Shown piece after piece: positions 10,797 through 19,354 of a stretch of DNA of 64,000 nucleotides. This DNA is from Terriglobia bacterium. Lineage in GTDB: Bacteria; Acidobacteriota; Terriglobia; Bryobacterales; Bryobacteraceae. The notes under the pieces are model-generated. The model was not told where the DNA came from and searched no databases. It worked only from the letters and a program-made list of their open reading frames with translations. Where the stretch lies: contig JAIQFE010000016.1 of assembly GCA_020073445.1 (NCBI GenBank), positions 62,001 to 126,000 on the forward strand. The letters run 5' to 3'. The translations under genes were made by a program, and so were the position numbers. Position 1 is the first letter of the stretch, and every line of letters begins with the position of its first letter.

Positions 10797-11594
10797 ATGA
10801 AACGTAATCTTGTTTGGCTGCTCGGGGCTGTCTTGTTCGCGCATGGTTCCGGCAATGCGCAGGATTTTGATGGCAAGAAGGTAGCGGCAGCGCTCACGCG
10901 GAAAAACATCCCTCCTGCGCCACGCTTGCCCGACGGCCATCCCGACCTGGGTAACGACAAAGGGGCGTGGGAGCCTCCGGGCGTGGGCGACATGGCCGGC
11001 ACAGGAGGCGGTTTCGCAGGAACCGCGCAGCCGGAGAAGAAGGTCGACGTGCCCTTCCTTCCATGGGCCAAGGCCGCATACGATCAACGCAATGCCAGCA
11101 TCACGAAGGACGATCCCGAAGGGTTCTGTCTTCCTTCGGGAATCCCGCGTATGTACGCGACCTCCTTCCCGTTTCAGATTTACCAGATGCCCAACCGCAT
11201 TCTGTTTGTGTTTGAGGGCGGCGCGCACATGTGGAGAGTCGTATACACGGATGGGCGGAAACATACGCCGCCCGACAAGCTGAATCCGACGTACCTGGGC
11301 GAGGGGATCGGCCATTGGGAAGGCGACACGCTGGTGGTCGATGTCACCGGGTTGAACGATCGAAGCTGGGTGGACGCGGCAGGGCATCCGCACACGGAAC
11401 AGCTTCACGTGATCGAGCGCTTCACGCGCGTGAATGAGCTAATTTTGCACTACGAGGCGACGATCGACGATCCTGGAGCCTATTCCAAGCCGTGGACCAC
11501 GAGCTGGAATATCCTGTTCCACCCCGGCATGGAACCGTTCGAGTATATCTGCCAAGAGAATAATGCCGATCTGAAGCATCTGGTCGGTAAGTAG
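10797..11594 (+). CDS. Exported GHWEGD-family protein (copy 1 of 4)
   Basis: A 265-residue exported protein of unknown function. ATG at 10797 follows a GGGGAGGGG ribosome site by about 7 nt, so the in-frame TTG at 10791 is less likely. After the signal peptide the family pattern is FLPWAKAAYDQR, CLPSGIPRMY, WRVVYTDGRKH, IGHWEGDTLVVDVTGLND, ERFTR and IDDPGAYSKPW. Three relatives in this window share these motifs. The gene ends GGT AAG TAG, and those last eight bases are the target duplicated by the transposon that follows, so the insertion sits exactly on this stop codon without destroying it. Confidence 0.8.
   Translation: MKRNLVWLLGAVLFAHGSGNAQDFDGKKVAAALTRKNIPPAPRLPDGHPDLGNDKGAWEPPGVGDMAGTGGGFAGTAQPEKKVDVPFLPWAKAAYDQRNASITKDDPEGFCLPSGIPRMYATSFPFQIYQMPNRILFVFEGGAHMWRVVYTDGRKHTPPDKLNPTYLGEGIGHWEGDTLVVDVTGLNDRSWVDAAGHPHTEQLHVIERFTRVNELILHYEATIDDPGAYSKPWTTSWNILFHPGMEPFEYICQENNADLKHLVGK
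11587..11594. repeat. Left copy of 8-bp target-site duplication GTAAGTAG
   Basis: GTAAGTAG ends the upstream gene's coding sequence and occurs again at 14317-14324 next to the other end of the transposon. An 8-bp duplication is the size usually made by IS1595-family elements. Confidence 0.85.
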
Positions 11595-11617
11595 GGTAAC
11601 TATATACTTCGCTAACC
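11595..11617. repeat. Left terminal inverted repeat of the IS1595-type transposon
   Basis: The first 23 bases (GGTAACTATATACTTC, then GCTAACC) match the reverse complement of 14282-14304 at 20 of 23 positions. The similarity continues more loosely for about 8 bases inward. The repeat directly abuts the target duplication. Confidence 0.85.
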
Positions 11618-11661
11618 ACACTTGCTAGGCTGGTGGTGGCGTGACAGGTCGGAAAAATCAG

Positions 11662-12039
11662 TTATTTTAGGCGTTCCAGGAATCGCCTATGGTGTTCCGT
11701 GATCAACTCGAATTTGGCTTTTTGGGCGGGATCTTTTTGGTCCTCAGGGGTCAGGGGAGGAGGAGGAGGAGGTATCATGGCCGCAGGGAAGTTGATCTTT
11801 CCATTTGCGGCTTCAAATGCTTCTATGTTCAGTTGGAGATAGTAGCTCACCAGCATTGCATGAGCCCACGTCATAGTAATTGCGGTATGCCATTCCACGC
11901 CACGCTTAAACCCTGCCAGTTCGCCAAATATTATCTTGAGGTCCCATACGGTTGGGGAGAAAAAGGTGTTGTTGGCGTATTCGACAGTTAAGTCTTCATC
12001 GTTTTGCTGAAGCGGCTGTGACTTCGCTGATTCGTCCAT
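11662..12039 (-). CDS. DUF3467-like small protein, transposon passenger
   Basis: A 125-residue soluble protein. EYANNTFFSPTVWDLKIIFGEL followed by ITMTWAHAMLVSYYL and a Tyr/Glu-rich helix resembles the DUF3467 pattern (YANN...DfrLiFG...vtmSp.hAk.L). The C-terminus has a six-proline run and a charged tail. Its function is unknown. It is the last gene of a minus-strand group inside the transposon, 17 nt after the zinc-ribbon gene, and is probably co-transcribed with it. Confidence 0.6.
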   Translation of the reverse strand: MDESAKSQPLQQNDEDLTVEYANNTFFSPTVWDLKIIFGELAGFKRGVEWHTAITMTWAHAMLVSYYLQLNIEAFEAANGKINFPAAMIPPPPPPLTPEDQKDPAQKAKFELITEHHRRFLERLK

Positions 12040-12056
12040 TTTGTGTTTTTACAAAA

Positions 12057-12440
12057 CTACGCTACGGCTGGCAGCAGTTCGCGATATGGAGAGACAGGTT
12101 CTTCCCGTAGAATCCGTTTCGCCCTGGGCCTCTTCTTCGCCCTAAAAGCCCTAGGATCAAACTCAGCAAGTCCGCCCTGGCCTATCACCATGGAAAATGG
12201 GAGTACGGGAGCGTTAAGTATAAGTCGATCCAACTGAAGTCGTGGGTCCCAGTGTTGGGGCCTTTCGTTGAACCTGCTCCACCATGCTGGTCCAGTTCTA
12301 ATCCATGCCGCCCTTAGATCTGGGATGGAAGCGCGTATGTCATGCCCAAACTCGGTTCCGCAGGATGAGCAAATGTTGTAATCGGACGGAGGAACCTCCA
12401 TCTGATAGCCACACACAGGACAAATATTGAAATTTACCAT
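12057..12440 (-). CDS. Small zinc-ribbon protein, transposon passenger
   Basis: From ATG 12440 the protein has 127 residues. NICPVCGYQME and NICSSCGTEFGHD form a CxxC...CxxC zinc ribbon at the N-terminus. It is followed by AWIRTGPAWWSRF and WDPRLQLDRLIL, which recur in a widespread uncharacterised zinc-ribbon family. The longer ATG at 12491 would add an unlikely N-terminal tail. The start overlaps the end of the preceding gene by 7 nt, which suggests coupled translation. Its role is unknown; DNA, RNA or protein binding is possible. Confidence 0.65.
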   Translation of the reverse strand: MVNFNICPVCGYQMEVPPSDYNICSSCGTEFGHDIRASIPDLRAAWIRTGPAWWSRFNERPQHWDPRLQLDRLILNAPVLPFSMVIGQGGLAEFDPRAFRAKKRPRAKRILREEPVSPYRELLPAVA

Positions 12441-12784
12441 GCGAGGCACGTTGCCTGATAGTATAGCAGGTTCGTGGCGTAATCGTGGCACTTGTTTGCG
12501 GCCCGCGCTATCGCCCGCTGCGCTGGTGCGAGCGTAGCGCAGGGTACCGGTACAAAGAAAGTTCGTATAACGCCACCGCGCATCGTTCCAAAGTGATCGC
12601 TGACCGTGTTAAAGCGCACCAAGTCTCCGCGAGATCGCGTATGCTCCAATGTTGGCGCGAGTATGGGAGAAGTCAGAAACGTACTGGCCAACAATTCATA
12701 CTCTGCGGCGGTTGCCGCTCCAAAATCCGCACCGTGGCGCTGAAAATGGTTGTTCAATTGGGGGAGACCGTAGAACCTAGCCAT
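12434..12784 (-). CDS. Hypothetical protein with FGxxxGGVIRTFF motif, transposon passenger
   Basis: From ATG 12784 the protein has 116 residues. It reads NNHFQRHGADFGAATAAEYELLA, then RSRGDLVRFNTVSDHFGTMRGGVIRTFFVP. This pattern occurs in small hypothetical proteins, sometimes as the tail of larger secreted or phage proteins, where an RNase-like toxin fold has been suggested. That function is a guess here. The upstream extension to 12958 lies opposite a real small gene and lacks similarity, so it is rejected. It is first in the minus-strand passenger group and overlaps the zinc-ribbon gene. Confidence 0.5.
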   Translation of the reverse strand: MARFYGLPQLNNHFQRHGADFGAATAAEYELLASTFLTSPILAPTLEHTRSRGDLVRFNTVSDHFGTMRGGVIRTFFVPVPCATLAPAQRAIARAANKCHDYATNLLYYQATCLAW

Positions 12785-12815
12785 TTCGGAAATATGATGA
12801 TATAACACAACTAGG

Positions 12816-12971
12816 ATGGAACGAAAGCCAGACATGATCGAAGGGCCGGAAGCGTTCGCCCGCTTCCGGGATGCCGTCAAGAAGGTTCTGACGGTCCCCA
12901 AGAGCGCGGTTCCCAATCCGTTCGGCAAGCGCAAAAAGCAAAAGAAAACGCCTACCAAGAGATCCCTCTAG
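12816..12971 (+). CDS. 51-residue basic small protein, transposon passenger
   Basis: This short frame encodes MERKPDMIEGPEAFARFRD, then AVKKVLTVPKS, NPFGKRKK and a lysine-rich tail. The pattern FxRFxxAVKxVLxVPKS resembles a widespread family of very small proteins of unknown role found near mobile or toxin-antitoxin genes. It is the only plus-strand gene in the transposon, divergent from the FGxxxGG protein and convergent with the 82-residue gene, whose end it overlaps by 4 nt. A canonical ribosome site is not clear. It could be the antitoxin-like partner of the divergent gene; nothing in the sequence proves that. Confidence 0.6.
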   Translation: MERKPDMIEGPEAFARFRDAVKKVLTVPKSAVPNPFGKRKKQKKTPTKRSL

Positions 12972-13216
12972 TCGGGCGCTATTCTTTCCAATGCGCGAAT
13001 ACAATCCTTAACCACGTCTAGTTCGTCCGCGGTCATCGCGTCTAGCTGTGCGATCCGGTGATCGCGCTCGCGTTCCTTGTCATCGAAAGTCCGTCCGTCA
13101 TCTGGCGGTTGCGTGTCGAGGAGTACTTGCAGATGATGTATCACTTTCCCCTCGTCGATGTCCCGGTCTTTTCGAAAGAGGTCGATCATTTTTAGGATGG
13201 CTGCATCGCGAGTCAT
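12968..13216 (-). CDS. 82-residue charged hypothetical protein, transposon passenger
   Basis: A small, highly charged and predicted all-helical protein (MTRDAAILKMIDLFRKDR at the start, MTADELDVVKDCIRALER near the end). It has no membrane segment, signal or recognisable catalytic motif. It lies between the transposase and the plus-strand small gene, and overlaps the latter's stop by 4 nt in a convergent arrangement. I do not recognise the family. Its helix-rich, acidic C-terminal half could suit a protein-protein adaptor or antitoxin. Confidence 0.5.
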   Translation of the reverse strand: MTRDAAILKMIDLFRKDRDIDEGKVIHHLQVLLDTQPPDDGRTFDDKERERDHRIAQLDAMTADELDVVKDCIRALERIAPD

Positions 13217-13287
13217 CTTTACCGTTTTCCTTCTTTGTAGGTAATTACCGATTACGCTTCCCGCGCTTTTGCCGTTTCAGTTCTTTC

Positions 13288-14256
13288 TCAGTTCGGCCAC
13301 GTTTCACCTTCGTGATTCTTGCCGGTGACTTGATCCCAAGTGAGACGCTTGCCGACGATCTGAGACGCGGCCAGTTTAAAGCGTTCCCAGTCGTTCATTT
13401 CCTTGCCGCGATTGTTGAACCGATAGGCTTGCTCATCGAGATAGCGGAACAAGTGAAACGGTTCGACGCTCACGTAGGTTCCGCTGATGGTGCGCTTCAG
13501 AAGCGCCCAGTAGTTCTCAAGCCCATTAGTGTGTATGTTGTCCCTCACATACTCTACCGCGTGATCTACAACCTTGTGCGCGTAGTCTCCGGCCAATCCC
13601 TCGTATGAGAGAAGGAAGTCGGTATAGAGCGCGGAACCCGCTTCGACGTTCTTGCGGACTTCGCCCTGGATGGCGGTTTTCTTTCGGTTCGGAATAACGG
13701 AGGTTCGCACTCGGCTCTTGCCGTCTTTGCCACGCTCAAGGATGCCCATAACTGGAGTCTTGTCTTTGGTTCCAGTCCCGGTGATTCGGCGCTGGCGTTG
13801 CGCTACATGCATGTTTCGCGCCTTCCCTCCGATAAAAGTCTCATCTGCCTCTACGTGGCCCGACAGTTTCTCGAACGATCCAGAGTAGAGCGCGAAGCGG
13901 ATACGATGATCGAGGAACCACGCTGACTTCTGAGTGATGCCGAGATCCTTTGCCATCTCGCATGAACTGATTCCGTTCTTGCAATTCACGATGAGCCACA
14001 GGGCGCAAAGCCACTTGTCGAGAGTGATCGGGGAGTCCTCGAAGATGGTTCCGACCTTCAGGGAGAACTGCGCTTTAGGATGCTTGCCGTAGCACTTGTA
14101 GCGGTTCACGCTCGCGAGATATGAAACGTTGTCCGATCCGCAGTACGGGCACTTGACCTTGCCATCCGTCCACCGCAAGCCCGCTAGAAACTCATTGCAG
14201 TTCTTGGGTTCGGCGAAGTAGATAATCGCCTCTTGGAGAGTGGATGGTAGTGCCAT
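13288..14256 (-). CDS. IS1595-family transposase
   Basis: A 322-residue transposase with an N-terminal zinc ribbon (CPYCGSDN at 37-44 with a second half near YKCYGKH) and a catalytic ISXO2-like domain. The acidic residues lie in GHVEADETFIGG (Asp138), YTDFLLSYEGL and HTNGLENYWALLKR, the usual IS1595 arrangement, and the C-terminal FRYLDEQAYRFNNR is typical. The frame is intact, so the element could still be active. The gene runs inward from the right inverted repeat, with the passenger genes behind it. Confidence 0.93.
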   Translation of the reverse strand: MALPSTLQEAIIYFAEPKNCNEFLAGLRWTDGKVKCPYCGSDNVSYLASVNRYKCYGKHPKAQFSLKVGTIFEDSPITLDKWLCALWLIVNCKNGISSCEMAKDLGITQKSAWFLDHRIRFALYSGSFEKLSGHVEADETFIGGKARNMHVAQRQRRITGTGTKDKTPVMGILERGKDGKSRVRTSVIPNRKKTAIQGEVRKNVEAGSALYTDFLLSYEGLAGDYAHKVVDHAVEYVRDNIHTNGLENYWALLKRTISGTYVSVEPFHLFRYLDEQAYRFNNRGKEMNDWERFKLAASQIVGKRLTWDQVTGKNHEGETWPN

Positions 14257-14281
14257 GAATCAAGAATACGGCAAGAAGCAT

Positions 14282-14316
14282 GGTTAGTCAAGTAAATAGT
14301 TACCTTAATTGTTGCC
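14282..14316. repeat. Right terminal inverted repeat of the IS1595-type transposon
   Basis: Read on the minus strand, the inner 23 bases match the left end at 20 of 23 positions. Twelve further bases, GGCAACAATTAA, reach the target duplication and look like an imperfect second copy (9 of 12) of the terminal GGTAACTATTTA. Confidence 0.8.
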
Positions 14317-14324
14317 GTAAGTAG
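14317..14324. repeat. Right copy of 8-bp target-site duplication GTAAGTAG
   Basis: It is identical to 11587-11594. It lies only two bases before the ECF-type promoter of the next gene, so the insertion narrowly spared that promoter. Confidence 0.85.
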
Positions 14325-14326
14325 AG

Positions 14327-14359
14327 ACTGTAAGGTTTGTGGAGGCCGTGCGTCAGCCC
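14327..14359 (+). promoter_or_regulatory. ECF-type promoter of the triple-repeat gene
   Basis: ACTGTAAGGTT at 14327-14337 and CGTCAGCCC at 14351-14359 are separated by 13 nt. The same two blocks with the same spacing lie upstream of the metallothionein-like gene (15596-15628). CGTC is the classic -10 core of ECF sigma factors, and an ECF sigma gene lies between the two targets. Confidence 0.8.
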
Positions 14360-14390
14360 AATGGAAAGGAAAAGTTAAAAGGAAACTAAC

Positions 14391-14975
14391 ATGTCGAAAC
14401 TCACGAAACTGACGAGAGGCCTCCTGGTGGTAACGGCCGCCAACATCGCATTGAGCGCAGCAAGTGGAGCAGATGGCGCGCTGGAGTACCGGATTCTTGC
14501 AACGTCCAAAACCTCCACTATGGACAAGGAGATCAACGAAGCGGCTGCCGATGGTTATCGCTTCGCCAAAGCCATGGGAGGCAAAACCGCAAACGGAGGA
14601 CAGGAGGTGGTTGTCGCAATGGTGAAGGAGGCTGGGGCCGCAGGCCGGTCCGGCTTCCGATACAAGCTGCTGGCCACGTCGAAAACCTCCACCATGCAGA
14701 AAGAAATGCAAAGCCTGGCGGACGAAGGCTATGAATACGTCGACCAGACCGTGTTCCAGACGGCCTTCGGAGGCAGGGAGGTAGTCGTCATCATGGAAGC
14801 CGACCCCGCCCAAAAAGCGCGTTCCAACTACCGGCTGCTTGCAACCACGAAAACCTCGACCATGCAAAAGGAGCTACAAGCGGCGGGATCGCAAGGATAC
14901 GTGTTGTTTGGCCTCACCGTGGGTAAGACAGAAATAGGAGGCGACGAGATCGTCGCAGTCCTGAGGAAGAATTAG
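14391..14975 (+). CDS. Exported protein with three DUF4177-like repeats
   Basis: A 194-residue protein with a signal-type N-terminus (cleavage probably near SGADGA) and three repeats of about 57 residues starting near 32, 90 and 148. Each has the form YRxLATSKTSTMxKExxxAxxxGY...GGxEVVVxM, reminiscent of DUF4177 (Y.vl...l..ELn..g.eGWelv). AAGGAAA precedes the ATG. The gene sits downstream of the ECF-type promoter and converges on the sigma gene, overlapping its end by 4 nt. It is probably a target of that sigma factor and an envelope stress or metal-response protein; no enzymatic motif is visible. Confidence 0.75.
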   Translation: MSKLTKLTRGLLVVTAANIALSAASGADGALEYRILATSKTSTMDKEINEAAADGYRFAKAMGGKTANGGQEVVVAMVKEAGAAGRSGFRYKLLATSKTSTMQKEMQSLADEGYEYVDQTVFQTAFGGREVVVIMEADPAQKARSNYRLLATTKTSTMQKELQAAGSQGYVLFGLTVGKTEIGGDEIVAVLRKN

Positions 14976-15571
14976 GTTTTGCCGGGTTGGCAACTTGCGG
15001 AGCCCGTGGACTGGCAGTGACAATCCAGGCACCCGTGCTCCGCGCAACTTCCGCAGACGACGCGCACCTGCTTGCGCAGAGCCTCCCGCGCCCGATGCAC
15101 CCGAACCGCAGCATTCCCCGAAGTAATCCCCGCCTGCGCCGCTAAATCATTCAGGCTTCCTTCATCCAGATCGATGGTCCGAAGCGCGTCCCGGTACTCC
15201 GGCTTGAGCGTATCCAACAAGCCCAGGATGCAGGCGCAGATTTCGTTCTTCAGTTCCGCTGCCGGAGCCTCCTGCGTGACAAACTCTTTGCCCCAACCCT
15301 CCATAGCCCGCTCCGTCGAAGCGCGGTGACGGTAATGATCGATGACAGCATTGCGTAATATTCGGTAAAACCACGCCACGACGCTCTCTTCGTCTCGCAC
15401 TTCGGCGCCGCGCTCCAGGCCCTTCACAAACGCCGCTTGCAGAATGTCTTCCGCGGCGGCCCGGGATTCGACGCGGGTTTGGAGGAATGCCAGAAACTGC
15501 CGGTGGTGATCCACAAGGCGCTGGATCGCCTCCGGGGTCAGGGAAGTCGATGATTCTGGAGTAGTTGCCAC
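14972..15571 (-). CDS. ECF sigma factor with C-terminal cysteine cluster
   Basis: A 199-residue sigma-70 family factor. Region 2 spans about 20-85 (EDILQAAFVKGLE, VVAWFYRILRNAVIDHYR) and region 4 about 115-170 (LKPEYRDALRTIDLDEGSLNDLAAQAGITSGNAAVRVHRAREAL). The last 30 residues add CGSCAEHGCLDCHC (Cys173, 176, 181, 184, 186) and another Cys at 194. No anti-sigma gene is adjacent. In related ECF groups such a Cys-rich tail is thought to sense metal or redox state directly. Both flanking genes carry the same ECF-type promoter, so they are the likely regulon. Sigma identity is firm; the sensing role is inferred. Confidence 0.9.
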   Translation of the reverse strand: MATTPESSTSLTPEAIQRLVDHHRQFLAFLQTRVESRAAAEDILQAAFVKGLERGAEVRDEESVVAWFYRILRNAVIDHYRHRASTERAMEGWGKEFVTQEAPAAELKNEICACILGLLDTLKPEYRDALRTIDLDEGSLNDLAAQAGITSGNAAVRVHRAREALRKQVRVVCGSCAEHGCLDCHCQSTGSASCQPGKT

Positions 15572-15595
15572 CAGGCTCAGACTATCACGCCCGGC

Positions 15596-15628
15596 ACTGT
15601 AAGGTTCTCGAGGGACGTACGTCAGCCC
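15596..15628 (+). promoter_or_regulatory. ECF-type promoter of the metallothionein-like gene
   Basis: ACTGTAAGGTT at 15596-15606 and CGTCAGCCC at 15620-15628 are separated by 13 nt, the same blocks and spacing as at 14327-14359. The -10 region is embedded in a perfect palindrome GACGTACGTC (15614-15623), which the other copy lacks. The leader to the start codon is about 50 nt. Confidence 0.8.
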
Positions 15629-15669
15629 CTATGAAAGCGCATTGAGCGCAGAAAAAAGGAGAAAAGAAA

Positions 15670-15816
15670 ATGTCGAACGTGAAGAGAGCCAATACGAAGA
15701 ATGCGGCTAAGGGCAACTGCGGATGCGGGACCTGCTCCTGCGGATGCGAGAAGAACGCTTGCCGCTGCCAGGAGACGAACTGCCAGTGCGGTTGCGGTAA
15801 GCCTTCCGGCCGGTAG
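15670..15816 (+). CDS. 48-residue metallothionein-like Cys-rich peptide
   Basis: This short frame encodes a basic N-terminus (MSNVKRANTKNAAKG) and then ten cysteines in 26 residues (Cys17, 19, 22, 24, 26, 31, 33, 38, 40, 42), mostly as CxC and CxxC pairs. No other fold signal is present. The composition is that of a metallothionein-type metal chelator, probably for Zn, Cu, Cd or Fe. AAAAGGAG precedes the ATG by 7 nt, and an ECF-type promoter lies about 50 nt upstream. It is divergent from the Cys-tailed sigma factor. Similarity to a named metallothionein family could not be tested; a maturation peptide or regulator is an alternative. Confidence 0.75.
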   Translation: MSNVKRANTKNAAKGNCGCGTCSCGCEKNACRCQETNCQCGCGKPSGR

Positions 15817-15822
15817 TCGACA

Positions 15823-15887
15823 CTTCATGTTGGCCTCCTGCGATCCGTAAATGATATAGTTTTGAATCGCAGGAGGTCTTCATGAAG
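15823..15887 (+). promoter_or_regulatory. Hairpin that pairs with the ribosome site and start codon of the cytochrome gene
   Basis: CCTCCTGCGAT (15834-15844) is fully complementary to ATCGCAGGAGG (15866-15876), which contains the Shine-Dalgarno. An outer pair, CTTCATG (15823-15829) with CATGAAG (15881-15887), encloses the start codon, with a symmetric 4-nt internal loop. The terminal loop is 21 nt. No U-run follows, so this looks like translational control rather than a terminator. Confidence 0.7.
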
Positions 15888-16847
15888 CATTTGATTCTGG
15901 TTCTGATCGCGTTGCTGTCGTTCTTTGTAGTGGTGGCGCTGCCGCAACAATCGCAGAATCTTGAGTGGGCGTATCCCGTGCCTGACAAGAATCCTCCACC
16001 CGCGGGCGATGCGAAGGAACTGAAGCGGCTTCCGGGCAGCACCAAGTCCTACACGCAGGCGCAGATCGACGATCAGCTCAATCCCCCGGACTGGTTTCCG
16101 CAGGAACACGCGCCGCTGCCCGGGATTGTGGAGCACGGATTCCAGGTGCAAGCCTGCGGATCATGCCATCTGATGTCGGGACATGGCCACCCGGAGTCCG
16201 CCATGCTTGCAGGCTTGCCCGTGGCGTATATGATGCGGCAGATGCAGGACTTCAAGAGCGGCGCTCGGAAGGATCCCATGGTCTATGAGCCGTCGCAGCG
16301 TGCCGCGCGGATGAACGGGATCGCCAAGGGCCTGCCCGATGAAGACATGCGCAAGGCCGTGGAGTATTTTGCGGCCCTGAAGCCGGCCGTCTGGTACAAG
16401 GTGGAAGAAGCGCAGACCGTGCCGAAAACGTGGGTCAACGGCGGCCGCATGCGCTTCGCTCTGCCGGGCGGCGGGACCGAGCCGATCGGTAATCGCATCG
16501 TCACTGTGCCGCAGGATCCGGCGAGGGTCGAGAGCCGCGATCCGCACTCGGGATTCATCGCGTATGTGCCGCCGGGCAGCCTCAAGAAGGGCGAGACGCT
16601 AGTGAAAACCGGCGGTTCCGGCAAGACGGTTGCCTGCGAGATTTGCCACGGTGATGGGCTCAAAGGCCTGGGCGATGTGCCTCGGCTGGCGGGCGTTCAT
16701 CCGATCTATATCGTCCGGCAGCTTTACAATTTCAAGAGCGGCGCCAATAGCAGCACGGCGGGCGCGCAGATGAAAAAGGTCGCCGAGAAGCTGACCGAAG
16801 ACGACATGATCGCCATCGCGGCGTATGCAGCGTCGCTAGCGCCGTAA
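15882..16847 (+). CDS. Exported diheme c-type cytochrome
   Basis: A 321-residue protein with a signal or membrane anchor at residues 1-22. Two heme-binding sites occur: CGSCH at 92-96 and CEICH at 252-256, each followed by a parallel segment (MMRQMQDFKSGAR and IVRQLYNFKSGAN) and a MxDEDM/LTEDDM helix, as in cytochrome c4-type two-domain proteins. The middle segment (about 165-250) is an insert with no recognised fold. It would shuttle electrons in the periplasm, perhaps for the quinoprotein oxidases. Its ribosome site is embedded in a strong inverted repeat, so its translation may be structure-controlled. Confidence 0.88.
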   Translation: MKHLILVLIALLSFFVVVALPQQSQNLEWAYPVPDKNPPPAGDAKELKRLPGSTKSYTQAQIDDQLNPPDWFPQEHAPLPGIVEHGFQVQACGSCHLMSGHGHPESAMLAGLPVAYMMRQMQDFKSGARKDPMVYEPSQRAARMNGIAKGLPDEDMRKAVEYFAALKPAVWYKVEEAQTVPKTWVNGGRMRFALPGGGTEPIGNRIVTVPQDPARVESRDPHSGFIAYVPPGSLKKGETLVKTGGSGKTVACEICHGDGLKGLGDVPRLAGVHPIYIVRQLYNFKSGANSSTAGAQMKKVAEKLTEDDMIAIAAYAASLAP

Positions 16848-16852
16848 GCAAT

Positions 16853-19285
16853 CTACTCTTGCCGCAGGGCCGACATCGGGTCGATTTTGGTAGCGCGGCG
16901 CGCGGGGATCCAGCAAGCGATTCCCGCGGTCAACGCGACTAAACCGGCGGCTATCCAAAGGTGCGATAGATTCGCCGACTCCAGACCCGGGAGGAAACTA
17001 CGCAGAGACTGCATCGCTACTAGAGCCAGTCCGAGCCCGATCGCAAGCCCTATCGCGACCGTCAGAGATCCCTGCTGGAAGACTAGGGCCAGTACGTCCC
17101 AGGGCATCGCACCCACCGCCACCCGAATCCCGATTTCCTGCGTTCTGCGCGAAGTGGTGTAGGAAATGACACCGTAAACGCCGGCGGCGGACATGACCAG
17201 GGCCAGGCCTGCCGTCACCGCGAGCAACATCATGATAAATCGCCGGTCTGCGACCGAATCGGCGATGAGCGCCGTCATGGTCGTGCTGAGGAACACGGGC
17301 TGATTCGGGTCGATCCCGGCGATGGTTCGCCGTATGGCTTTCTCCAGATCTCCCGAAGGCCGCTGCGTTCGAACGACAACGAAGTAAGATTCCCGCATCG
17401 CTCCGGCTGCCAGGTAAATATTGCCTTTCGCGCCTTCATTGAGAGCGGTGTGGCTTGCGCTGGAGACGACTCCAATGACGCGCTTCCAGTTGTTCGGATT
17501 CTCCGGCGTGCAGTCGACGCAGACTCGCTGTCCAACGGCGCTGGCGCCTGGCGAGAGACGGGCGGCGACAAAATCATTCACAATAGCGGCGTCATTGGAT
17601 TCGGCCATCTCCTCCTCGCGGAACCAGCGTCCATCGAGGAGGCGAACTCCCATGGTTTGGAGATACTCTCCGCCCACGACGTCGATCTCGCCTTCGAGCT
17701 TGGATCCTTCCGCCGCGTTGACGTAGCCGCCGTGATTTTCGCCACTAAAGGGCAGGGCGTCCACGGTGCCTGCGCTTTCGACTCCCGGAAGTACACGCAC
17801 GGAGTCCAGAATTCGTTTGTAAAACAGCGCTCGCTGCGCGGGGTCGGAATACCGTTCGGGCGCGGGCAGCACTACCGACGCCAGAATCCGATCCGCCTGG
17901 AAGCCGGGATCGGTGCGGATCAACTTCACGAAGCTGGTTAGCAGTTCGCCTCCGATCACCACCAGAACGACCGAAACGGCCACCTCGGCCGCCACTAAGG
18001 AGGATCGAGTGCGATCGTGTCTACCTGAAGCGGCGCCGCGCGCGCCAAATCCACTGAGTGAGGTCCCTTTCGCACGGGTCAGGCGAAGCGCGGGTGCGAT
18101 GCCGAACAGGATTCCATTGACGGCCGCCAGTGCAACAGCGAATCCAAAGATCGTCGAATCCGCGCGCGCGGCGGCCAACCGGGGAATGTTTATAGGAGCC
18201 AGGGCCGGCAGGATCCTCCATGCTGCCGCTGTGAGAACATAGCCGCCGATACCACCCAGCACGGCCAGCAGGCAGCTTTCCGTAAGCAGTTGGCGGACGA
18301 TCCGCATTTGTCCCGCGCCGATCGCGAGCCTCACGTCAATTTCGCGCTGCCGGGCAAGCCCGCGCGCCAGCAGCAGGTTGGCAACATTGGCGCATCCGAT
18401 CAGCATAAACAGCACAGCGGCGGCCATCAGCAACAACAGACCGTTGGTGGCGATTCCTACGGTCCGGTCGCGCACAAAGTTTAAGCGAAGAGAGCGGTCG
18501 CGATTGGTTTCGGGAAAATCGTGGCTGAGCGTCTCACTGATCGAAGCAAGGTCCTGGCGCGCCTCGGTCAACGTCACTCCCGGTCGCAACCTTGCCACGG
18601 CGCCAAGTGCCGCATTCGGATTAGCCGGCGTGTTGAATGGCGCTGCCCAGAAATCCCTGTAAGGAGAAGGCGTATGAGCCGCTTGCCTGCGGAGTGGAAA
18701 GTCGAAATCGGGCGGCATGACGCCGATCACGAGATAAGGGCGCCCATTGACTGTGACGCTTCGCCCTACGATGGAATCGTCCGAGTTGAACCGTCGCGCC
18801 CATAGGCCGTAGCTCAGGATTATTACGTCTGGGTGGCCGCGTTGATCCTCTTCCGGAAGGACGTTGCGTCCGAGCATCGGGGAGACACCCAGAACTCGGA
18901 ACAAGTTCGCATTCATCCGTACGCCGTACAGCGCTTCCGGAGTCGAATTCGCATCGCCTGCAAGATCGAAAACAGCGTTGCTGTACACGCCTGTCGATTC
19001 TAGTGTGCGCGTCCTCCGATCCAGTTCGCGGGTGTCGTTCCAAACCACCCAGTCGCTCGTCGCTTGCTCCTGCATCTGGGAGAATTCGCTGCGCAACTGC
19101 ACGAGCCGTTCGGCATGTGCATACGGCAATGGATCGATCAGCACAGATTTGATCGCAGCGAAGACCACCGCGGCCGCGCCGACGCTCAACGCGATTGACA
19201 GGAGAGCGATTCCGGTAGGAACAGGAGTGCGCCGGAAGATCCGAAACGCGAGGCGGATGTCCTGGAAGATCGACATCAGCCTCAA
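16853..19285 (-). CDS. MacB/FtsX-type large permease, acidobacterial orphan (ADOP) type
   Basis: An 810-residue membrane protein. It has an N-terminal transmembrane helix (about 25-47), a MacB-type periplasmic domain (DIILSYGLWARRF, VIGVMPPDFDFP), a central set of membrane helices with LMLIGCANVANLLLARGLARQREI, a second periplasmic domain, and a C-terminal FtsX set (VYGVISYTTSRRTQEIGIRVAVGA). This duplicated permease without an ATPase next to it is the form described as acidobacterial duplicated orphan permease. Met4 may be the true start. The partner ATPase and cargo are unknown. Confidence 0.88.
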   Translation of the reverse strand: MRLMSIFQDIRLAFRIFRRTPVPTGIALLSIALSVGAAAVVFAAIKSVLIDPLPYAHAERLVQLRSEFSQMQEQATSDWVVWNDTRELDRRTRTLESTGVYSNAVFDLAGDANSTPEALYGVRMNANLFRVLGVSPMLGRNVLPEEDQRGHPDVIILSYGLWARRFNSDDSIVGRSVTVNGRPYLVIGVMPPDFDFPLRRQAAHTPSPYRDFWAAPFNTPANPNAALGAVARLRPGVTLTEARQDLASISETLSHDFPETNRDRSLRLNFVRDRTVGIATNGLLLLMAAAVLFMLIGCANVANLLLARGLARQREIDVRLAIGAGQMRIVRQLLTESCLLAVLGGIGGYVLTAAAWRILPALAPINIPRLAAARADSTIFGFAVALAAVNGILFGIAPALRLTRAKGTSLSGFGARGAASGRHDRTRSSLVAAEVAVSVVLVVIGGELLTSFVKLIRTDPGFQADRILASVVLPAPERYSDPAQRALFYKRILDSVRVLPGVESAGTVDALPFSGENHGGYVNAAEGSKLEGEIDVVGGEYLQTMGVRLLDGRWFREEEMAESNDAAIVNDFVAARLSPGASAVGQRVCVDCTPENPNNWKRVIGVVSSASHTALNEGAKGNIYLAAGAMRESYFVVVRTQRPSGDLEKAIRRTIAGIDPNQPVFLSTTMTALIADSVADRRFIMMLLAVTAGLALVMSAAGVYGVISYTTSRRTQEIGIRVAVGAMPWDVLALVFQQGSLTVAIGLAIGLGLALVAMQSLRSFLPGLESANLSHLWIAAGLVALTAGIACWIPARRATKIDPMSALRQE

Positions 19286-19354
19286 TTCTATGAGATTTCA
19301 ATCAGCCGGGAGTCCCTTGCACTCGGAGCGCGAGTAGCGCTATACCTTGGACTC

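Follow-up and report, generated by a model that had tools for sequence, protein, structure and literature searches.

The cysteine-tailed sigma locus and its two motif copies

In the 64 000-nt stretch of Terriglobia DNA that we analyzed as a whole (the window), a two-block motif stands upstream of two very different genes, and an ECF sigma factor with a cysteine-rich C-terminus is encoded between them. This arrangement raises the question of whether the motif is the promoter of that sigma factor, and if so, which genes it serves and which signal it passes on. A preliminary description, made from the sequence alone, had reported the motif at 14327 and 15596 with identical spacing. We found ACTGTAAGGTT-N13-CGTCAGCCC exactly at both places (14327–14359 and 15596–15628, forward strand), with a gap of 13 nt in both copies and with TGTAAGGTT-N13-CGTC as the core of each. 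In the copy at 15596, upstream of a gene for a metallothionein-like peptide, the −35 block TGTAAGGTT (15598–15606) is followed by the 13-nt spacer and the −10 block CGTC (15620–15623) by AGCCC. The distance of 17 nt from TGTAA to CGTC is of the form known from ECF promoters. Only 0.01 matches are expected by chance in the shuffled window, even if three mismatches are allowed, and no third exact match exists anywhere in the 6.58-Mb genome. Taking this expectation together with the comparisons of genomes against reversed controls, we rejected chance as an explanation of the motif. With at most two mismatches, 30 matches were found genome-wide compared to 34 for the reversed-pattern control, so that at this stringency the regulon is self-contained. 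A copy with one mismatch was observed elsewhere in the same genome (locus L003, contig C14, 26234–26261), where a gene for a multicopper oxidase lies some 65 bp away; the copy was rejected as a promoter of that gene, since it points away from it and is probably a chance match.

The preliminary description had let the sigma factor and its two neighbours share one promoter. For the sigma gene itself this has to be withdrawn: we searched its own upstream strand for a copy of the motif and found none, and an autoregulatory copy was rejected for this reason.

By its sequence hallmarks the sigma factor is of the CorE type

The gene between the two motif copies (14972–15571, reverse strand) encodes a protein of 199 aa with sigma70 regions 2 and 4, a Cys tail and a CxC in the linker. 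Sigma70_r2, Sigma70_r4_2 and TIGR02937 all score above their cut-offs, sigma2 and sigma4 are the only domains, and the PDB matches are ECF sigma factors. Among the NCBIfam models SigZ scored best, but we rejected it, since it reached 106 compared to a cut-off of 212. The C-terminal end carries CGSCAEHGCLDCHC, the tail has the pattern C173-x2-C176-x4-C181-x2-C184-x-C186, and the linker between sigma2 and sigma4 contains C112-A-C114. In an alignment of 48 homologues C112, C114, C173, C176, C181, C184 and C186 are invariant, with the invariance of the tail cysteines being partly due to selection, as the homologues were extracted by their tail. The CxC was not used as a selection criterion and occurs in all 52 tailed homologues extracted. 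As had been proposed, no anti-sigma gene was found among the neighbours of this Cys-tailed sigma factor, which encode the peptide, a cytochrome c, a permease, a DUF4177 protein and an IS1595 transposase.

CorE and CorE2 are sigma factors of Myxococcus xanthus, formerly assigned to ECF44 and now to ECF238 (PMC3107203, PMC8999054). The tail cysteines of CorE are located at positions 181, 184, 189, 192 and 194; those at 181, 184, 192 and 194 were invariant in the 21 tailed sigma factors compared in 2011, Cys189 is the main residue for activation, and Cys184, 189, 192 and 194 have a strong effect on activation or inactivation (PMC3107203, PMC8999054). The CRD and the linker CxC are both essential in CorE-like sigma factors, and CorE2 is a Cd/Zn sensor whose specificity comes from an additional Cys adjoining the second one of the tail (PMC3107203, PMC8999054). 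Judged by these published positions and hallmarks, the window sigma factor is CorE-like, because it combines the tail spacing of CorE with the linker CxC, and its pattern is that of CorE and not that of CorE2, because the additional Cys is absent. The earlier suggestion of a tail of the metal-sensing kind thereby gains a concrete counterpart, the spacing being equal to that of an experimentally known copper sensor. In the structure model, tail and linker reach a pLDDT of only about 40–65 (low confidence), and with the tail not resolved in this model a joint metal site of tail and linker was not seen.

The list of 21 tailed sigma factors from 2011 includes NIDE1902 of Candidatus Nitrospira defluvii as well as Phenylobacterium zucineum and Roseobacter litoralis as further species (PMC3107203, PMC8999054). 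We observed that the homologue from Candidatus Nitrospira defluvii (L059) is 63% identical to the window sigma factor, while plasmid-encoded sigma factors of P. zucineum and R. litoralis, which may be the listed ones, are distant hits.

The motif follows the sigma factor in two phyla

We compared the window with a sample of 61 related genomes, six of which have a close relative of the sigma factor. The exact TGTAAGGTT-N13-CGTC was found in five of the six relatives with the sigma factor and in none of the 55 without it (Fisher p=1e-6), and every motif site in the sigma-bearing relatives of this set adjoins the sigma gene. The sixth sigma-bearing relative, G020, has TGTAATGTT at the place of the motif. 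The sigma locus of G034 (L025, contig C367, 7.9 kb) nests inside the Nitrospira group; this contig is probably mis-binned, and the count of six relatives with the sigma factor may thus be one too high. In the Nitrospirota sample of 198 genomes, nine contain a close homologue (E below 1e-64), and the motif is present in all nine of them compared to 9 of the 189 others (p=4.5e-11), the latter number being near the control rate of about six. Most of the Nitrospirota genomes with only more distant homologues are without the exact motif. Across 32 named sigma-bearing genomes we counted 25 exact sites, compared to 2 for the reversed-pattern control. Conserved bases were also observed outside the search pattern, namely AC before the −35, T after the −35 block and AGC after CGTC. 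The preliminary description had staked its reading beforehand on conservation of the motif near orthologues of the sigma factor, and this is what we found in both phyla; the motif tracks the sigma factor among the Acidobacteriota relatives and in the Nitrospirota, as expected for an ECF promoter that is specific to it.

For CorE, a promoter has been reported whose −35 is of the AAC type and in which the −10 has a conserved G at a distance of 16–18 nt (PMC3107203, PMC8999054). Our spacing to the −10 G agrees with this distance, whereas the −35 is TGTAAGGTT instead of the AAC type. At the loci of more distant tailed sigma factors, in Myxococcota and on plasmids of Rhodobacterales and Manganitrophus, we found TGTAAC-N16-CGTC, which is in line with CorE. 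The promoter type thus seems to be common to the whole family, with a variant −35 in the branch of the window sigma factor. These observations also bear on the idea that the motif is an operator of some other DNA-binding regulator and adjoins the sigma gene only incidentally. Although the motif is predicted to be a promoter in this genome from sequence alone, we regard this idea as very improbable, as the motif follows this one sigma branch in two phyla, has the spacing of an ECF promoter and has its counterpart at the distant tailed sigma loci, where the TGTAAC form is consistent with the AAC −35 of CorE.

A metallothionein-like peptide is inherited together with the sigma factor

Downstream of the motif at 15596 we confirmed the ORF of 48 codons that had been noted there (15670–15816, forward strand), which is preceded by the ribosome-binding site aaggag. 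The peptide has 10 Cys in 48 residues, arranged in CxC and CxxC, contains no F, W, Y or H and is without a signal peptide. Its composition is that of a classical metallothionein, and in its small size, its Cys content (at least about 20%, in CxC/CxxC) and its lack of aromatics it agrees with the broad sense of this term. The 18 members of the peptide family align with a common CxC core; for none of them was a match to Pfam Metallothio_Pro (SmtA/BmtA) found at E<=1, nor any convincing match in Pfam and NCBIfam. The preliminary description had held that this unit may have been missed, and its chelator-like peptide is in fact absent from these family collections. The family occurs in 5 of the 61 relatives, all five carrying the sigma factor (p=1e-6), and in 8 of the 198 Nitrospirota genomes, where again all eight carry it (p=2e-13). 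In all eight Nitrospirota cases the motif is located between the divergent sigma and peptide genes, and the promoter of the metallothionein-like gene holds the same place in the Acidobacteriota loci. Going by these distributions, the sigma–peptide pair is a conserved unit in Acidobacteriota and Nitrospira and not a chance resemblance.

One could object that an ORF of this small size, for which no family model exists, is not a gene, and that what matters is just the promoter together with an RNA or with the hairpin described below. However, the length, the CxC pattern and the aaggag site are conserved across two phyla, and in comparison to G020 the Cys-rich region shows 10 codon differences, of which 7 are synonymous and 3 non-synonymous, with every Cys kept in the region compared. 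Based on this synonymous excess, coding selection is visible on the peptide gene, and we consider the objection extremely improbable. Anatomy and conservation of the locus, the specificity of the sigma factor for its promoter and the co-inheritance of sigma factor and peptide can all be read directly from the compared sequences.

Just after the stop codon of the peptide gene the fold energy indicates a very stable hairpin (15823–15887, forward strand): the region 15810–15900 folds at −45.5 kcal/mol (z = −9.0). The hairpin also extends over the ribosome-binding site and start codon of the next gene, that for cytochrome c (15882), and probably acts as a transcript end or insulator. In nearly all copies of the peptide gene a site similar to aaggag is present and the stop codon is directly followed by a strong hairpin, so that the gene is probably monocistronic. 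A search of the region 13000–17000 against Rfam gave no match. Downstream of the peptide gene (15848–19297) the genes for cytochrome c and the permease have changed places in comparison to the close relative G020 (L051).

The second motif copy precedes a lineage-specific gene

The motif copy at 14327–14359 is located upstream of an ORF of 194 codons (14391–14975, forward strand), as had been described. Its product is a DUF4177 protein composed of three beta-alpha-beta-beta units, which has a signal-peptide-like N-terminus and is probably exported. It contains no Cys, and therefore it is unlikely to act as a thiol chelator. Homologues of the triple-repeat protein were found in 14 other relatives (most of them 40–63% identical, one 22%), and upstream of none of these did we find a convincing motif; nor is the gene encoded at any of the other sigma loci compared. 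For these reasons we rejected the triple-repeat protein as a conserved partner, and the envelope protein cannot be kept as the regular second output that it had been taken for. Compared to G020, a segment from about 11594 to 15013 is extra at the 3′ end of the sigma gene, and it holds the triple-repeat gene together with the IS1595 transposase gene (13288–14256). From this distribution the triple-repeat gene is best read as a lineage-specific recruit to the regulon. There is no support for a recent origin of either promoter by duplication of its counterpart, as the outer flanks differ and the 13-nt spacer of this copy is unrelated to that of the other. Since the two promoters have little in common beyond the recognition bases, the second one is likely to be functional as well.

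Relatives of the sigma factor point to copper

In the sigma tree the peptide-linked sigma factors fall into one group (one change; support 85/90; 94% of bootstrap trees). The Nitrospira set (100/99) is nested within the acidobacterial peptide group (100/95), which suggests a transfer between the phyla. The sister group of the peptide-linked sigma factors adjoins genes for cupredoxin, a metal P-type ATPase (HMBD/YHS) and a His-rich protein, several of which lie directly behind the motif or a variant of it, and a plasmid relative of the sigma factor is close to a copper ATPase gene. In the peptide-linked loci themselves the motif was not found in front of any established copper gene. Considering the sister-group neighbours, the tail pattern and the precedent of CorE, copper is probably the metal to be favoured; in the choice between copper and Zn/Cd, it is the neighbours and one residue that point to copper.

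A sigma factor that senses Zn/Cd in the manner of CorE2, with the peptide as a zinc or cadmium metallothionein, has to be weighed against this. CorE-like sigma factors include a Cd/Zn sensor, the tail chemistry would suit Zn binding, and a role in buffering zinc or cadmium has been discussed for several bacterial metallothioneins. However, the tail has the spacing of CorE without the Cys beside the second tail Cys that defines CorE2, and the neighbours in the sister group are of the copper type (cupredoxin, HMBD/YHS ATPase), so that we judge Zn/Cd sensing to be rather unlikely. There is a much slimmer chance that the tail serves as a disulfide-based redox switch, with the peptide as a thiol antioxidant and without a specific metal signal. 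Cys clusters of ECF regulators can indeed sense oxidants, as in zinc-binding anti-sigma systems, but the CorE-dependent cuoB is induced by Cu, Cd and Zn only and not by peroxide or diamide, and the recognisable neighbours at related loci are metal-handling genes. Of the ‘metal or redox’ signal that had been put forward, the metal half is thus favoured by the metal-gene neighbours and by CorE, while we found no evidence for the redox half.

Other targets were recognized among the related loci. The genome G064 holds two tailed sigma factors (L107 and L054), one of which adjoins a peptide gene; both are near genes of a common exported protein family without Pfam match, and in L054 such a gene lies directly behind the motif. 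At three further loci (L058:4589, L066:4582 and also L026) the targets behind the motif end in CCCH. They comprise a SnoaL-like protein and a peptide of 55 aa containing five Cys, and are perhaps another kind of small metal-binding product.

Proposed mechanism

We consider it quite probable that sigma factor, promoter, peptide and second target form a one-component metal-response cassette with a copper-type CorE-like sensor. Excess cytoplasmic metal, most likely copper and by analogy Cu(II), would be bound by the tail of the sigma factor together with the linker CxC, and the metal-bound sigma factor would act with RNA polymerase at TGTAAGGTT-N13-CGTC. It would turn on the divergent peptide gene, behind which the hairpin lies, and the metallothionein-like peptide would trap or buffer the metal and close a negative-feedback loop. 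In this genome, the second promoter copy on the extra segment would draw the exported DUF4177 triple-repeat protein into the response. The step in which the sigma factor switches on the peptide through a highly specific promoter very probably takes place in this way; with regard to metal binding, the identity of the metal, the direction of the switch and the buffering by the peptide, we reason from CorE and from the composition of the peptide. We further lean, with less confidence than for the cassette as such, towards a transferable sensor–chelator cassette, in which a CorE-like sigma factor, a new metallothionein family and a private promoter would make up a complete copper-buffering circuit. 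Such a cassette would have arisen in the Acidobacteriota and been passed to Nitrospira, and further genes, here that of the DUF4177 protein, would join it by gaining the promoter.

Comparison with known systems

The sensor class itself has been known since 2011. As far as the literature searched shows, the metallothionein-like output, the unclassified peptide family, the sharpened promoter and the cassette across phyla are new, and our search found no paper linking a CorE-like sigma factor with a metallothionein. CorE-like sigma factors, which carry the sensor within the sigma factor itself, form a small class of metal sensors that has been sampled poorly, and for one large branch of them our result provides a precise promoter signature together with an output that is conserved and can be tested. 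A bacterial metallothionein-like family from soil Acidobacteriota and nitrite-oxidising Nitrospira, so far unlisted, is added as well. With about 0.9 kb, sigma factor, promoter, peptide and hairpin are compact and make a candidate metal-inducible module.

The closest known systems are CorE and CorE2, with which the locus shares an ECF sigma factor without anti-sigma, the linker CxC and the tail C-x2-C-x4-C-x2-C-x-C. However, the targets of CorE are a multicopper oxidase, P1B ATPases and a heavy-metal-domain protein, while the target conserved here is a metallothionein-like peptide, and TGTAAGGTT stands in place of the reported AAC-type −35. SmtA/BmtA (Metallothio_Pro) and the mycobacterial MymT resemble the peptide as tiny Cys-rich peptides, and MymT is copper-protective and under the control of the copper regulator RicR. 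In contrast to these, the 18 members of our family have no Pfam or NCBIfam match, and the peptide is apparently under an alternative sigma factor and not a repressor. The bufferins (Buf1 = DUF2282, and Buf2; PMC12452194) are copper-sequestering peptides as well, and some Buf1 clusters contain sigma genes. However, bufferins are exported and enzymatically modified whereas our peptide has no signal peptide, and Buf1 clusters also hold genes for the NrsF anti-sigma (PMC12452194), which has no counterpart next to our sigma gene. Finally, OrbS of Burkholderia cenocepacia (PMC9023288) is likewise an ECF sigma factor with an on-board C-terminal Cys metal sensor, but it is inhibited by Fe(II) and its cysteines are spaced C-x2-C-x3-C-x5-C (PMC9023288).
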